Assembly (NCBI GenBank): GCA_013698525.1
Contig: JACCSM010000261.1
Span: 1 to 20,501, forward strand
Source: Rubrobacteraceae bacterium
GTDB lineage: Bacteria; Actinomycetota; Rubrobacteria; Rubrobacterales; Rubrobacteraceae
DNA: 20,501 nucleotides
Direction of reading: 5' to 3'
Shown here: piece after piece, positions 1,375-13,378 of the stretch
Position numbering within the stretch: position 1 is the stretch's first letter
Layout of the letters: every line of letters begins with the position of its first letter
Program-made: the position numbers and the translations under genes
Notes under the pieces: model-generated
The model's input: only the letters and a program-made list of their open reading frames with translations
What the model was told of the DNA's origin: nothing
Databases searched by the model: none

Positions 1375-2412
1375 TTGGTTGCGCCGGATCTCCGCAGAGC
1401 TGTAGGGGAGAGGTCTATCCGAGGGAAGGACAAGGGAGGGTCGCACGCGGGTATCTGGGCGTATCTGGCACTCGTCCTCGGCTGTCTGTTTGTGTTCGCG
1501 GGATGCGGAAGCGACGAGAGCCAGGTCCCTGTAACGCCCACCCAGAGTTCGGAGACGCCCCCCGCAGGCACCACTACAGGCAACGCCGTGGTTGGGGAAG
1601 GACAGGCCGAGAGCACCGAGGACATGCCTTTCACGCTCAACACGACCCAACCCGTGCCGCCCAACTTCGAGGAAGCGTACGGGCGGAGGGCCAGGCTCGT
1701 GGTCCAGTTCTACAAGCTGGATCAGGACTCGCTCTCCTATCCACAGGGCCTCTCTGTGGACCGCAAGGTCAACAAGTCCATGATGCGACTGAGCACCAAG
1801 TATCCGACCATCGAGTTCTTCACCTACGACATCGCGACCCCCGGGCCCGTCGGCGACGAGCAGAGTCTGCAGCCTGGCGAGTACGGTACGCTGGCCGCGC
1901 AACTCGGGGTCGGGATCACGCCGTTCGTCGCGATGGTCGCGCCGAGTGGCGAGGAATATGTGATCACCAACCTCTTCGAAGGATACGTGCCAAGACCCGT
2001 GTTGAGCCAGGCGCTCTTCGACCTCGCGGCGGTGCAGGTCGAGGACAACACGAGCGATGCCAACGTGACGCTGGAACAGGTACAGACGACCGACAAGGGC
2101 GGCGGAATCGAGTACTTCAGCGTGCAAAATCGGGGTGTCAAGTCCATGAACCTGCAGGGCTTTACCCTGAGGGTCCTCGATCCCGAGACGGCGCAGGTAA
2201 CACCTGGCGCGCCGGGTGTTACGATCAATAGCGATATCAAGGTGAAGCGGGGTCAGAACGTCTCCATCGGCCGCGTTCCCGACATAGTAGACGACAAGGG
2301 CAAGCGCGTGGCAGGCACGTTCGAAGGAGGCACGTCGCTCGATCTGGCGCCAGGAGACCAGATCGCACTCCTCGACCCTGGTGGCGCAGTCGCCTCCACC
2401 ATCACCGTCTGA
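1375..2412 (+). CDS. Lipoprotein with thioredoxin-like and lamin-tail-like domains
   Basis: A 345-residue exported lipoprotein of unknown function. Residues 1-44 form a lipoprotein signal with a basic N-region, a hydrophobic stretch (WAYLALVLGCLFVFAG) and lipobox Cys44. A Thr/Pro/Gly-rich linker follows to about residue 95. Residues about 100-225 look like a thioredoxin fold (RLVVQFYKLDQ strand; VGITPFVAMVAPSG with the cis-Pro-like TPF), but no CxxC redox pair is present. Residues about 240-345 resemble a lamin tail (LTD) beta-sandwich (EYFSVQNRG, MNLQGFTLRVLD, then LDLAPGDQIALLDPGG). The start is TTG at 1375 with GGAG 4 nt upstream; no other in-frame start precedes the signal. The gene stands alone and ends in a hairpin. 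The domain calls are made by eye, and function cannot be named. Confidence 0.8.
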   Translation: MVAPDLRRAVGERSIRGKDKGGSHAGIWAYLALVLGCLFVFAGCGSDESQVPVTPTQSSETPPAGTTTGNAVVGEGQAESTEDMPFTLNTTQPVPPNFEEAYGRRARLVVQFYKLDQDSLSYPQGLSVDRKVNKSMMRLSTKYPTIEFFTYDIATPGPVGDEQSLQPGEYGTLAAQLGVGITPFVAMVAPSGEEYVITNLFEGYVPRPVLSQALFDLAAVQVEDNTSDANVTLEQVQTTDKGGGIEYFSVQNRGVKSMNLQGFTLRVLDPETAQVTPGAPGVTINSDIKVKRGQNVSIGRVPDIVDDKGKRVAGTFEGGTSLDLAPGDQIALLDPGGAVASTITV

Positions 2413-2430
2413 TGGCACATCGTGCCATCA
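2410..2430 (+). terminator. 9-bp perfect hairpin at the lipoprotein stop codon
   Basis: TGATGGCAC, loop ATC, GTGCCATCA: a perfect 9-bp stem whose first three bases are the stop codon itself. There is no T-tract, so this could be a Rho-independent-like or mRNA-end-stabilising stem. Its 3' arm runs directly into the first TCAGC octamer of the repeat element. Confidence 0.6.
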
Positions 2431-2611
2431 GCGAGTCAGCATTTCAGCGAGTCAGCGCTGTTAGTAGTGGTCCGGGTTCGTTTTGCTCTGCGGTGGATAA
2501 GTAGCCGCATCGTTTGCCAAGTAGACTGGCTCTGAGTGTGGGAGCGAGTCTGTCAGGCACTTGCCGAAATGCTGACTAGCCGCCGCAGGCGGCGGGCTGA
2601 CTCGCTGACAT
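2428..2611. repeat. Intergenic repeat element 1: inverted arrays of 8-nt units around a structured core
   Basis: The left arm (2428-2459) is four perfect 8-nt units: TCAGCGAG, TCAGCATT, TCAGCGAG, TCAGCGCT. The right arm carries the complement: GCTGACTA (2571-2578), a GC-rich hairpin insert (GCCGCC-GCA-GGCGGC, about 2579-2593), then GCTGACTC and GCTGACAT (2596-2611). Segment 2444-2456 is exactly complementary to 2596-2608 (13 nt), and 2434-2445 to 2566-2577 (12 nt), so the arms can pair. The core between them holds two further stems: TGCGG/CCGCA (2489-2509) and AGACTGGCTC/GAGCGAGTCT (2523-2551, one mismatch). No coding potential was seen. Sister arrays lie at 11350-11553 and 15504-15543. Confidence 0.8.
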
Positions 2612-2632
2612 TTCGGCCCATTAGGATAAACT
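2605..2632 (+). promoter_or_regulatory. Promoter of the desulfurase operon, -35 inside the repeat
   Basis: CTGACA (2605-2610) and TAAACT (2627-2632) are separated by 16 nt. The -35 hexamer is part of the last GCTGACAT octamer of repeat element 1. The start point would fall about 2638-2643, at or next to the ATG at 2643. No ribosome-binding site precedes that ATG, which fits a leaderless or near-leaderless mRNA. Confidence 0.5.
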
Positions 2633-2642
2633 AGACTCGGTC

Positions 2643-3803
2643 ATGACTGATCCTGTTTACCTGGACAACGCCGCCACCACGCCACTCGACCCGCGCGTTC
2701 TGGAGGCAATGCTTCCGCACCTTGGCGGCCGACGCGGCAATCCTTCTTCGCTTCACGCATTCGGAGACTCGGCGCGTGAAGGGTTGGAGGAGGCCCGCGC
2801 CGGTGTGGCCTCTCTGATCGGAGCTTCGCCCGGGGAGATAGTGTTTACCAGCGGCGGGACCGAATCCGATGACCTGGCCGTCCTCGGTCTGGCTAGATCC
2901 GCAGGCCCTGACAAGCGGCACGCGGTCGTCTCCTGCGTCGAGCACGCGGCGGTGCGGGAGGCAACAAAACGCCTGCAGTCCGAAGGTTTCGAGGTGTCCT
3001 GGATCGGGGTCGACGAGGACGGCCTCGTCGACCCTGCCGAGTTCGCCGCTTCGCTGCGCCGCGACACCGTGCTGGCCGCTGTCATGTGGGCGAACAACGA
3101 GGTTGGCACAGTAGAGCCTGTGCTCGAGCTTGCCGATATCTGCGCGGCGAAGGATGTCCCTTTCCACGCCGACGCCGTCCAGGCTGCTGGCAGGGTCCCT
3201 ATCGACGTCTCGGAGACGCCGGTCTCGACGCTGGCTCTCTCGGGCCACAAGCTCTACGGCCCGCAGGGCATCGGCGCCCTGTACGTGCGTGAGGGCGTCT
3301 CGCTCGAACCCATAGTCTACGGCGGAGGGCAGGAGAAGGGTCTAAGGAGTGGTACCGAGAACGTCGTAGGGATCGTCGGCCTTGGCACGGCTGCGAGGCT
3401 GGCCCGCGAGGAGATGGACGACCGTGTCACGCACGAAAGGGAGCTACGCGACCGCATCATGGCCGGGGTGGAGGAGATTCCTGACGTGCTCGTAAACGGG
3501 CATCGCGGGCGGCGATTGTCCAACAACGTCCACCTAACGGTATCCGGCGTCCAGGCTGAGAGCCTGGTCCTCTTCCTCGATTCGCTCGGCTACGCAGTCG
3601 GGAGTGGATCGGCCTGCTCTTCGGGCGGGCACAAGGCTTCACCGGTCTTGCTCGCGATGGGCCTTCCCGAGCGAGAAGCGTTCTCTGTCGTCAGGATCAC
3701 GGTCGGCAAAGACAACACTTTGGAAGAGGTCGATGACTTCCTCGAGGCGTTCTCTACCGCGGTGGCGCAACTACGAGAGCTCTCTCCGCTCTACGCGGGC
3801 TGA
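2643..3803 (+). CDS. Cysteine desulfurase (NifS/IscS-like)
   Basis: A 386-residue PLP enzyme that removes sulfur from L-cysteine as a persulfide and hands it to acceptors. The N-terminus YLDNAATTPLDPRVLEAM is the standard start of the family. FTSGGTESDDLAV is the PLP phosphate-binding region, HAVVSCVEHAAV holds the ring-stacking His, and SGHKLYGP carries the Schiff-base Lys203. GSACSSGG has the persulfide Cys325 in the flexible IscS-type loop. Length is normal. The ATG at 2643 lacks a ribosome-binding site and lies next to the predicted transcription start. Thirteen nt separate it from the IscU-MnmA fusion, so a dedicated role in tRNA thiolation is likely, as for the B. subtilis desulfurase YrvO beside mnmA. 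A wider Fe-S role is possible. Confidence 0.95.
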   Translation: MTDPVYLDNAATTPLDPRVLEAMLPHLGGRRGNPSSLHAFGDSAREGLEEARAGVASLIGASPGEIVFTSGGTESDDLAVLGLARSAGPDKRHAVVSCVEHAAVREATKRLQSEGFEVSWIGVDEDGLVDPAEFAASLRRDTVLAAVMWANNEVGTVEPVLELADICAAKDVPFHADAVQAAGRVPIDVSETPVSTLALSGHKLYGPQGIGALYVREGVSLEPIVYGGGQEKGLRSGTENVVGIVGLGTAARLAREEMDDRVTHERELRDRIMAGVEEIPDVLVNGHRGRRLSNNVHLTVSGVQAESLVLFLDSLGYAVGSGSACSSGGHKASPVLLAMGLPEREAFSVVRITVGKDNTLEEVDDFLEAFSTAVAQLRELSPLYAG

Positions 3804-3816
3804 AGGCGGGTTATTC

Positions 3817-5280
3817 ATGTCCGATCGTTACAGACAGCAGGTCGTAGACCACCTTGTCCGGCCGCGCAACGCTGGTGAGTTAGGCGATCCTTCTGGCAGG
3901 GGCGAGTCCGGCGACGCCGCGTGCGGCGACGTCGCCTGTTTTACGGTCGGGATCTCGGACAACGTCCTCGAACAGGTCCGCTACAAGGTCTACGGCTGTG
4001 CGGCGTGCATAGCCGCCGGCTCGGCACTTGCCGAACTGGTCGAAAGCAAACACCTCCTCGATGCCGCCAGCGTCTCTAAGGCTGATCTGCAAGATGCGCT
4101 TGGCGGACCCCTTCCCGCTGGGAAAGAACACGCGCTCACGCTCGTCCTCGACGCAATGCACAAGGCCTTCGAGGACCACTGGAACCGCAAGGCGGGCGAG
4201 ATGCTCTCTGAGGCAGAGAGAGGACGGGTAGCCGGTGGCAAGAGCGTCGTGGCCGCGATGAGCGGGGGTGTTGACTCGGCGGTCACGGCCCTGCTTCTCA
4301 AAGAGGCCGGCTACGAGGTCGCAACCGTGACGTTCCGGCTGCACGACGGCGAGAGGGGCAGCCGCTCGTGCTGCTCGCCGGACACGGTGCTCTTCGCCCG
4401 CGACACGGCGCACAGGATGGGCCTGCCGCATTTCACGCTCAACCTCAAGGAGCTCTTCGACAGGCGCGTTATGCAGGACTTCGTAGGCTCCTACAGCGAA
4501 GGCAGGACCCCCAATCCCTGCGTCGCGTGCAACGCCCACGTCAAGTTCCACGCTTCCTCGTTCCTCGCTGACGAGCTTGGATACCACCACGTCGCGACGG
4601 GGCACTACGCCAGGGTAGAAGAAGGTCCGACGCTCGCGCGCCCCGTGGACGCGAGCAAAGATCAGACCTACGTCCTCTGGCCTGTGCCGCGGGATCTCCT
4701 GTCGCGTACGATCTTCCCCCTCGGCGAATACCGTAAGGCGCAGGTCCGCGCCATCGCCGAGGAGCGTGGTCTCGCCGTCGCCTACACCCCGGAGAGCCAG
4801 GATATCTGCTTTATCCCCGATGGAGACTACCGCAGGTTCGTCCGCAAGAAGGCGGCTGCGGAGCCCGGGGATGTTGTAGACCGCGAAGGACGAGTACTCG
4901 GCCGTCACACCGGCGTCGTCGACTTTACGGTCGGACAACGGCGCGGAATAGGCGTCTCGGCGCCGACGCCGCTGTACGTCAGCGAGGTGCGTCCGCGTAC
5001 CGGCCAGGTCGTCGTCGGACGTAAGCAGGATCTCGAGGTGCGCGAAGTGGGGATCAGGGATCTGAACTGGTTCCTCGACCCTGAGAAAGCTGCTTGCGTG
5101 CAGGTCCGCTACAACGGCTCGCCGGTCCCTTGCACGGTCGAGGAGGCCGATGACGGTCGGTGGCTAGCCTCTCTCGATGAGCCGGTCATCGGTGTCGCGC
5201 CTGGCCAGTCCGCCGTGTTCTATACCGGGGACGGGGAGCGGGTCGTCGGGGGTGGCGTCGTTGTGCGCAGTGACTCTTGA
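3817..5280 (+). CDS. mnmA: IscU-like scaffold domain fused to tRNA-uridine 2-sulfurtransferase MnmA
   Basis: A single 487-residue frame carries two modules. Residues 1-125 are an IscU/NifU-N domain (RYRQQVVDHLVRPRNAGELGD; Cys36 in ACGD; Cys61 and Cys64 in YGCAACIAAGS; PAGKEHALTLVLDAM). The third usual ligand Cys is Ala106, just after His105. The Cys61-to-106 spacing lacks the SufU insertion. Residues about 138-487 are MnmA, which makes 2-thiouridine at position 34 of Lys, Glu and Gln tRNAs: PP-loop SGGVDSA (149-155), NPCVAC (Cys235, Cys238), GHYARV, and SQDICFIPDG with Cys331. The start is ATG 3817; the longer upstream frame only overlaps the desulfurase gene. An internal ATG at 4201 (residue 129) has only a weak ribosome-binding site, so a separate MnmA product is possible but less likely. 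Sulfur or cluster is presumably donated by the desulfurase upstream. Confidence 0.93.
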   Translation: MSDRYRQQVVDHLVRPRNAGELGDPSGRGESGDAACGDVACFTVGISDNVLEQVRYKVYGCAACIAAGSALAELVESKHLLDAASVSKADLQDALGGPLPAGKEHALTLVLDAMHKAFEDHWNRKAGEMLSEAERGRVAGGKSVVAAMSGGVDSAVTALLLKEAGYEVATVTFRLHDGERGSRSCCSPDTVLFARDTAHRMGLPHFTLNLKELFDRRVMQDFVGSYSEGRTPNPCVACNAHVKFHASSFLADELGYHHVATGHYARVEEGPTLARPVDASKDQTYVLWPVPRDLLSRTIFPLGEYRKAQVRAIAEERGLAVAYTPESQDICFIPDGDYRRFVRKKAAAEPGDVVDREGRVLGRHTGVVDFTVGQRRGIGVSAPTPLYVSEVRPRTGQVVVGRKQDLEVREVGIRDLNWFLDPEKAACVQVRYNGSPVPCTVEEADDGRWLASLDEPVIGVAPGQSAVFYTGDGERVVGGGVVVRSDS

Positions 5281-11590: not shown

Positions 11591-11821
11591 TGTCAGTGGC
11601 GTTTGATCTTGCAAAACCGCGGCTTTTCATGGAAGATCCATCGTGACAGGGCCGATCCGCAAAGGTAGTGCGTGCACTCGTGAGGCGCTTCGAGCCCGCC
11701 AAAACTCCTGGACGGAGCTGATGTAGCGCGGGTGTAGGTCTTCGTGGCTTGCGCTCGTGTGGAGGGGAGCAGGCCGGGTGCCTACTCCCTTTCAACGCTG
11801 ACTAGAGATGAGAGGGCGAAC
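11591..11821 (+). other. Noncoding stretch upstream of the arylsulfotransferase gene
   Basis: No gene is recognised here. A small palindrome AGTGC-GT-GCACT lies around 11665-11676. A weak promoter-like pair, GTGACA followed 16 nt later by GTAGTG (about 11643-11670), can be drawn but is not convincing. In-frame GTG codons at 11744 and 11759 could extend the next gene upstream, but they lack good ribosome-binding sites. Confidence 0.35.
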
Positions 11822-13378
11822 TTGGGCAAGCGGTCGAGAACTGGGAGACTCGAAGCAAAGATCACACGTCGAAGGTTTCTCGGGGCGGCCACGGCCGGGA
11901 CCGCCTTGGTCGCACTTTCGGGTTCCCTTGGATGCGAGCCGACCGCGCGCACCAGGGCGACCGCCGCGCCCCAGGGAGAGGGCCAGGCGATGATTTTCCG
12001 CTCGCGTCCGGATCTTCGCCCGCCGGTCATCCAGGTGAACACGAACCTCCCTGGCACGGCGCCAGGCCACATCTTCGTCTCTCCCAAGAAGGGTCCTGGG
12101 GAGGAAGCCCCAACCCAGGACGCACCGCTAATAGTCGACGCCAGCGGTGAGCCTGTCTGGTTCCATCCACTGCAGGATGCGGAGGCCGACGCCTTCAACT
12201 TCGAGGTCCAGACGTACAAGGGAGAGACGGTGCTCACGTGGTGGGAAGGACAACACACGGGCTACGGCCAGGGCGAGTACGTGATCTGTGACCACTCCTA
12301 TCGGGAGATAAAGAGGGTAAGGGCCGGCAACGGCTTCGAGGGGGACCACCACGAGTTCCTCATCACGACCGAGGATACGGCGTTGATCACGATCTACAGC
12401 AAGGTGTCCAGGGACCTGTCTGGCGTCGGCGGTCCCGTGGACGGTGAAGTTCTCGACGGGATAGCCCAGGAGGTCGACATCGAGACCGGCGAGGTGATCT
12501 TCGAGTGGCACAGCCTCGACTACGTCGAGCTCGACGAGTCTTATTACGAACCGCCGCCCGACCTCGAGGCGGCTTTCGACTACTTCCACATCAACTCCAT
12601 AGATCCGGATCCAGACGGATATCTGATCATCTCGGCCCGCAGGACTTGCGCCGTGTACAAGGTCGACCGAAAGACGGGCGAGGTCGTCTGGCGACTCGGC
12701 GGGGAAAAGAGCGACTTCGACATGGGATACGGTACCAGAACGGACTGGCAGCACGATGCCCGCCTCCACCCCGATGGCATCATAACGATCTTCGACAACG
12801 GCGGGGTCCAAAAGGACGTCCAGTCTCGCGCCATAGTGGTCGAGATCGACGAAGATGACATGAGTGCCACCCTCGTTGGTGAGTACACGCATCCGGACAA
12901 GATACTCGCGGCTACGCAGGGCAACGCGCAGGTGTTGCCCAACGGAAACGTGTTCGTCGGGTGGGGAAGCGAGCCCTACTTCTCCGAGTTCAGCCGAGAC
13001 GGCAAGCTGCTATTCGATGCCAGCTTCCCTTCACAGGTCGAGTCCTACAGGGCCTTCCGCTTCCCGTGGAAAGGCCAGCCAGAGGATCGGCCCGCGGTCG
13101 TGGCCGAATCCGGGGCCGGAGACGAGGTAACACTCCACGTCAGTTGGAACGGCGCGACGGAGGTAGACACCTGGCAGGTGCTCGCCGGTGGTGGTCCCGA
13201 CAAGCTCGAGCCCGCAGGCTCCGCTCCCCGCAAGGGCTTCGAGACCGCTGTAACCCTGAACACCAGTGAGCCTTACGTCGCCGTCAGAGCCAAAGACAGC
13301 TCGGGCCGGATACTCGGTAGCTCCGAGGCGATCAAGCCGGTAGAGCCTTCCGCTTCGACGGGCCAAACGCGCTCGTAA
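11822..13378 (+). CDS. Tat-exported arylsulfotransferase-family (ASST) lipoprotein
   Basis: A 518-residue surface protein. Residues 1-38 form a twin-arginine signal (TRRRFLGAATAG) ending in lipobox SLGC, so it is probably folded before export and lipid-anchored at Cys38. The body (about 70-420) matches the arylsulfotransferase-like beta-propeller family: TWWEGQHTGYGQGEYVICDH, GDHHEFLITTEDTALIT, DYFHINSIDPDPDGYLIISA, GEVVWRLGG, WQHDARLHPDG, and VLPNGNVFVGWGSEPYFSEF. The C-terminal 90 residues look like an FN3-type sandwich. Known ASSTs move sulfate between phenols, but many members of this branch are untested. The start is TTG 11822, with GAGAGG 6 nt upstream and a normal Tat N-region; GTG 11744 is the longer option. 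The next gene follows after 6 nt. Confidence 0.85.
   Translation: MGKRSRTGRLEAKITRRRFLGAATAGTALVALSGSLGCEPTARTRATAAPQGEGQAMIFRSRPDLRPPVIQVNTNLPGTAPGHIFVSPKKGPGEEAPTQDAPLIVDASGEPVWFHPLQDAEADAFNFEVQTYKGETVLTWWEGQHTGYGQGEYVICDHSYREIKRVRAGNGFEGDHHEFLITTEDTALITIYSKVSRDLSGVGGPVDGEVLDGIAQEVDIETGEVIFEWHSLDYVELDESYYEPPPDLEAAFDYFHINSIDPDPDGYLIISARRTCAVYKVDRKTGEVVWRLGGEKSDFDMGYGTRTDWQHDARLHPDGIITIFDNGGVQKDVQSRAIVVEIDEDDMSATLVGEYTHPDKILAATQGNAQVLPNGNVFVGWGSEPYFSEFSRDGKLLFDASFPSQVESYRAFRFPWKGQPEDRPAVVAESGAGDEVTLHVSWNGATEVDTWQVLAGGGPDKLEPAGSAPRKGFETAVTLNTSEPYVAVRAKDSSGRILGSSEAIKPVEPSASTGQTRS

Follow-up and report, generated by a model that had tools for sequence, protein, structure and literature searches.

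The Tus carriers of Escherichia coli are separate proteins of another kind than the scaffold protein IscU, the fold of which contacts the desulfurase in IscS-IscU complexes. In the review PMC11784392, the route of sulfur to the tRNA thiolase MnmA in bacteria that lack Tus is presented as disputed, as is the need of MnmA for an iron-sulfur (Fe-S) cluster. The same source defines the C-type MnmA by the cysteine pattern CC-CxxC-C and gives C102 and C199 as the catalytic cysteines of the E. coli enzyme. The C-type MnmA from Thermus thermophilus was reported to hold a [4Fe-4S] cluster and to be active only under anaerobic conditions (PMC8584467). An artificial MnmA-YrvO fusion was reported to be functional in a Plasmodium complementation, but this construct joins the desulfurase itself to MnmA (PMC10219651). 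Here we describe a natural fusion of an IscU-like domain to MnmA, encoded at positions 3817..5280 of a 20,501-nucleotide stretch of DNA from a Rubrobacteraceae bacterium (contig JACCSM010000261.1), which was analyzed as a whole and is referred to as the window. A literature search by titles and abstract openings found no description of an IscU-MnmA fusion.

The fused gene was found to be a single open frame of 487 amino acids (aa) on the forward strand, as are its parts and the desulfurase gene described below. Pfam NifU_N matches residues 5-125 (3829..4191) with an E-value of 1.1e-22 and 80.9 bits against a cut-off of 22, and three MnmA domains span residues 143-482 (4243..5262), with the PP-loop SGGVDS at 149-154. 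The linker between them, residues 126-141 (4192..4239), is free of stops, and its residues 132-139 have low confidence in the structure model. The protein passes the cut-offs of two NCBIfam MnmA equivalogs (NF001138, 377.8 versus 284; TIGR00420, 298.5 versus 236.95), and, among the matches listed, the alignments of the MnmA structures 2hma, 2det, 2deu, and 2der are confined to residues 140-487. All 120 listed homologues (of 7,999 matches), which share 97% to 79% identity and come from several sources, have the same NifU_N plus MnmA architecture, and most are 485-490 aa long. A frameshift or assembly artefact was rejected on this ground and is, judged from the aligned sequences, very unlikely; the IscU-like::MnmA fusion is real. 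The original prediction, that one open frame joins an IscU-like domain to a complete MnmA directly after a cysteine desulfurase, is thus borne out. The desulfurase gene (2643..3803; IscS/NifS type, Aminotran_5 E 3.3e-79) ends 13 bp before the fused gene. Its best NCBIfam match is NifS, at 452.7 bits and under that model's cut-off of 530.75, and we take the cysteine of the SGSACSSG loop (3615-3617) to be that of the catalytic loop, by analogy with IscS.

The same prediction called the IscU/NifU-N domain complete, and this is true of the fold and not of the active site, because the third IscU cysteine is missing. The domain is a NifU_N domain with a predicted IscU fold. The first cysteine and the aspartate of the IscU site are kept in Cys36-Gly-Asp38 (3922..3930), with Cys36 present in 121/121 and Asp38 in 120/121 Rubrobacter-type proteins. 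The second IscU cysteine and an extra, family-typical cysteine are found in Cys61-Ala-Ala-Cys64 (3997..4008), both in 121/121. The KxHC loop has become Lys103-Glu-His105-Ala106 (4123..4134), each of the named residues being invariant in the 121 proteins, and Ala106 aligns with the third cysteine of solved IscU structures. This position is glycine in two other Rubrobacteraceae rows and in Rubrobacter locus L137. The domain therefore lacks the three ligand cysteines with a KxHC loop that characterize IscU, and also the three-Cys-plus-Asp zinc site of SufU, of which only Cys36, Asp38, and Cys61 are present. When the whole fused protein was scored, it remained below the scaffold cut-offs, both for the nearest NCBIfam model, TIGR03419 (NifU_clost; 95 versus 187.9), and for IscU (TIGR01999; 63.3 versus 192.4). 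Cys64 was considered as a general substitute for the lost cysteine and rejected, since the position is Ser or Thr in two of the six separate Rubrobacteraceae genes described below and Ser in the fused L137; it is possible that Cys64 serves as such a substitute in the protein of the window.

The loss of the full ligand set extends across the fused domains. A total of 71 fused domains were aligned, nine duplicate loci having been left out, and the 69 with all five positions were counted (the incomplete L027 and L094 were set aside); these rows are linked by descent and are not independent. The complete Cys/Asp/Cys/His/Cys set was found in 0/69, from ten families. Four metal-type ligands are retained in 52 of the 69: Cys-Asp-Cys-His without the third cysteine in 43 (families f1, 23; f14, 8; f29, 5; f39, 7), and Cys-Asp-Cys with the third cysteine and no histidine, the SufU-type site, in nine, all from other families than that of the window (f27, 2; f49, 5; f57, 1; f68, 1). 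Unfused neighbours of mnmA in the phylum outside Rubrobacteraceae have the full set in 10/10 cases (f18, 8; f45, 1; f62, 1), as do 19 of 21 further separate NifU-like proteins, not every one of which adjoins mnmA. These 21 are L130 (f73) and 20 loci from a pattern scan, among them L144, also from Actinomycetota; the rest are from other or unassigned phyla. Counted by family, the full set is found in 0/10 fused versus 4/4 unfused families (f18, f45, f62, and f73). The two exceptions among the 21 are L155 (Candidatus Latescibacterota), a separate NifU upstream of mnmA in which the first cysteine and the aspartate are both Asn, and L168 (Chloroflexi bacterium), where an unfused IscU-like frame at 1599-3273 before mnmA has lost the KxHC histidine (CDCKAC) and stops just short of the MnmA homology.

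The fusion is widespread. Among 36 Rubrobacteraceae genomes, including that of the window, an uninterrupted fused frame was found in 23; in one more (G020) the fused frame ends at a contig edge, and six (G010, G011, G018, G023, G033, and G034) have two separate genes that abut or overlap. MnmA is partial in G003 and G005, and no MnmA match was found in four genomes that are 60-82% complete. Genome G380 of this family has a fused copy and, on another contig, a second MnmA match (81%, residues 169-485; loci C492 and C358), with 6% contamination and perhaps a mixed bin. A search of 396 genomes of the phylum, in which long matches were fetched and read, identified at least 47 fused loci outside Rubrobacteraceae, and the family counts are lower bounds (at least 9 in f5, 8 in f14, 7 in f21, 3 in f27, 5 in f29, 7 in f39, 5 in f49, 1 in f57, and 2 in f68). 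Two fused loci are incomplete, L058 by a stop within MnmA and L102 by a contig end. Ten proteins were scanned, one per family for nine of the families, and nine passed the NifU_N cut-off, the remnant L098 of f24 giving no match. Named fused loci are L133 (Thermoleophilaceae), L134 and L135 (Solirubrobacterales, the latter cut), L137 (Rubrobacter), L138 (Actinobacteria Ga0077541), and L139 (Thermoleophilia), the domain of which reads as that of L061; the third cysteine is absent from all six. Restriction of the fusion to the window, or to the genus Rubrobacter, was rejected: mapping the architecture across the phylum, as had been proposed, places it in at least ten families, Rubrobacteraceae included, and in two supported MnmA clades.

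Among the matches listed in a scan of other phyla with the single pattern AMSGGVDS, nifU-like and mnmA genes are unfused and mostly follow a desulfurase gene, and the unfused order desulfurase-NifU-mnmA was found in loci of Bacillota, Chloroflexota, and Thermodesulfobacteriota. By comparison of these gene orders, the fusion arose between adjacent genes of a common iscS-nifU-mnmA order that the window and the Rubrobacteraceae still keep. The fused lineages may go back to one origin or to two. A quick tree of 124 rows gave eight changes of the fused state, at least four of them forced by well-supported branches. In a careful tree of 87 rows, for which 37 of the 124 had been removed by hand, the fused lineages group into two clades with good support (100/98 and 99/93), and the unfused L124 is a member of the latter. 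Rows were chosen to be rich in fused loci, with some removed by hand before any tree, and the separate genes and the putative remnants L097, L098, L129, and L166 were scored with the fused state in the careful tree. Its bootstraps gave two to three changes and a single group in 0% of 200 trees; the approximately unbiased (AU) test on the 124-row set is compatible with one clade (p 0.838), and the constrained tree outscored the quick free search. For L129 (G137) and L166 of f43, the N-terminal stretches of about 75 aa lack the cysteine loops and look remnant-like by eye; their profile E-values (0.06 and 0.05) improve only slightly on the 0.23 reached by the best of 1000 shuffled sequences, and a remnant is not claimed.

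Using the gene of the window as the reference against ten Rubrobacteraceae, nonsynonymous divergence (dN) over the domain was determined to be 0.03-0.21 and synonymous divergence (dS) 0.26-1.76, with dN well below dS in 10/10 comparisons, which supports a protein-coding role of the region 5' of MnmA. The corresponding values for the MnmA part are 0.04-0.15 and 0.35-1.18. By these ratios, both parts are under purifying selection in this lineage, the domain somewhat less so. An internal translation start at ATG 4201 (Met129), in the linker, is possible, in addition to the first start or even in its place; the residue is Met in 103/121 relatives and different in 18.

The MnmA part carries the C-type cysteines (4369..4809), namely C185/C186 (4369-4374), C235 (4519-4521), C238 (4528-4530), and C331 (4807-4809), each in 121/121. 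C238 and C331, whose counterparts in the alignment with E. coli MnmA are the PNPDILC and ICFI cysteines, provide the two catalytic cysteines beside the PP-loop. An association of the fusion with the C-type was not seen, since the CxxC motif is present in nearly all MnmA rows examined (60/60 fused, 30/30 from separate genes, and 31/34 without a NifU neighbour, the remaining three giving no match to the pattern).

The possible sulfur donors differ between families. A desulfurase gene is directly upstream in 9/9 Rubrobacteraceae loci inspected (six split and three fused). At L137 (Rubrobacter sp. M04BS1SP1A68) it is spread over two consecutive open frames (70% and 73% identity), one ending at 2060 and the next starting at 2063, either because the gene is broken or through an error in sequencing. 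Outside this family, a match to the desulfurase of the window is absent from the fetched stretch in 46/47 fused loci, the exception being L096; some of these stretches end at contig ends. Thirty fused genomes were searched as wholes. The ten from f29 and f39 have one SufS-like desulfurase match each (27-34% identity, 60.7-106.2 bits), and 4/4 of those scanned pass the SufS cut-off, three with an adjoining SufU-like frame. In the eight f14 genomes the matches are IscS-like (36-43% identity) and lie on different contigs or, in the case of G107, at a great distance. Stronger desulfurase matches were obtained for f21, f27, f49, and two f5 genomes, and the search of the third f5 genome (G376) gave no match to the desulfurase of the window. 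The six near-complete Rubrobacteraceae genomes that were searched each have another two or three NifU_N matches, some SufU-like by motif, so Fe-S scaffolding need not rely on the fused domain. In the genome of the window, L002 is presumably, by its motif, a separate SufU-like protein.

Our best explanation, to which we would give an even chance, is that the N-terminal domain is a captured IscU scaffold turned into a tethered module for desulfurase docking and sulfur hand-off. Because part of the scaffold active site is lost, the domain probably helps to pass sulfur rather than to build Fe-S clusters. It retains the fold and four of five site residues (Cys36, Asp38, Cys61, and His105), and the lost fifth would correspond to the persulfide acceptor of ISCU2. 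Free human ISCU2 was reported to bind iron through the equivalents of these four, Cys69, Asp71, Cys95, and His137. Its persulfide acceptor is Cys138, a C138S variant showing no more than background persulfide, and persulfide transfer requires neither Cys69 nor His137 (PMC11021402). For SufU of Bacillus subtilis and Mycobacterium tuberculosis the first cysteine is given as the acceptor, with zinc aiding the docking of SufS, and the M. tuberculosis study states that Zn-SufU is no intermediate in Fe-S formation (PMC10216065). From these residue roles, we infer that most fused domains have kept the features required for docking or a SufU-like relay and lost some that are required of a scaffold, and that the domain of the window should bind zinc or iron and dock a desulfurase, with no ISCU2-type cluster building. 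MnmA would then receive its sulfur directly from the docked desulfurase or via Cys36, the donor being the IscS-type enzyme encoded immediately upstream in Rubrobacter and perhaps SufS, the sole candidate found, in f29 and f39. More tentatively, a scaffold may have been captured in deep Actinomycetota as an in-built, metal-gated sulfur relay that lost the cluster-building cysteine and kept the metal site and docking surface, and in Thermoleophilia-type genomes SufS alone may feed 2-thiouridine (s2U34) synthesis, replacing IscS plus Tus.

Several points weigh against the hand-off module. Tethering is not essential, since six Rubrobacteraceae encode the two parts separately and keep the same residues, their ligands resembling those of fused domains in 6/6. 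By dN, which is higher in 9/10 comparisons, the domain changes at a somewhat greater rate than MnmA. For Enterococcus faecalis SufU the proposed acceptor is the third cysteine, lost here (PMC10216065), and B. subtilis MnmA is described as receiving sulfur directly from its desulfurase with no adaptor (PMC11784392). Fewer ligands remain in 17/69 fused domains (f5, 9; f21, 6; f27, 1; f68, 1), and in L098 of f24 all five residues are missing from the aligned positions while the predicted fold is retained; relay chemistry is thus not general, though docking could be. The state of L098, together with the absence of Asp and of the second and third cysteines from 6/6 complete f21 rows, would also suit a structural or RNA-binding part, in which the IscU fold stabilizes MnmA or touches tRNA and the old chemistry is dispensable and eroding. 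We regard this as rather unlikely, because, if the role were purely structural, there would be no need for Cys36, Cys61, Lys103, and His105 to be invariant in 121 Rubrobacter-type sequences or for Cys-Asp-Cys-His to be common to four families.

Delivery of an Fe-S cluster, for which the domain would still have to build or carry one and pass it to the C-type site of MnmA, appears less probable still. The MnmA of the window is of the type that holds a [4Fe-4S] cluster in T. thermophilus, and the domain has four possible ligands as well as Cys64, but the third cysteine is missing from all 121 Rubrobacter-type proteins, none of the 69 fused domains has the full set, and CxxC does not track the fusion. 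For this fusion next to a desulfurase, the proposal of a dedicated delivery module for 2-thiouridine synthesis stays plausible; it is weakened in its version as a working Fe-S scaffold. A near-neutral fusion of two adjacent operon genes, suggested by their common order and by the fused and split states within Rubrobacteraceae, is hard to credit given the purifying selection on the domain in the lineage of the window and its fusion in at least ten families.

Elsewhere in the window, positions 11744-13378 encode an arylsulfotransferase (ASST)-type protein (PF14269, E 7.5e-59), which is followed by a DUF6077 protein.

As a natural fusion with a broken scaffold site, set against unfused neighbours that are nearly all intact elsewhere, this protein separates cluster delivery from sulfur hand-off, provides single polypeptides in which both can be tested, and offers a case of a scaffold that loses its original function and yet remains attached to its client. 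Compared with the C-type MnmA of T. thermophilus, the MnmA of the window is equally complete, with the PP-loop and the type-defining cysteines, and differs by the extra N-terminal domain of IscU fold. It shares with the N-terminal scaffold of IscU/NifU the fold, the first two cysteines, Asp, Lys, and His, and a gene order that is unfused elsewhere, and is unlike it in lacking the third cysteine and in being fused. Like SufU it keeps the first (acceptor) cysteine, and unlike SufU (TIGR01994, 39.9 versus a cut-off of 92.5) it has Ala for the third cysteine and a histidine. As in the TusA-TusBCD-TusE relay of E. coli and the YrvO-MnmA pair of B. subtilis, which has no carrier (PMC11784392), sulfur would pass from a desulfurase to MnmA, but in the window the IscU-derived domain is part of MnmA itself.
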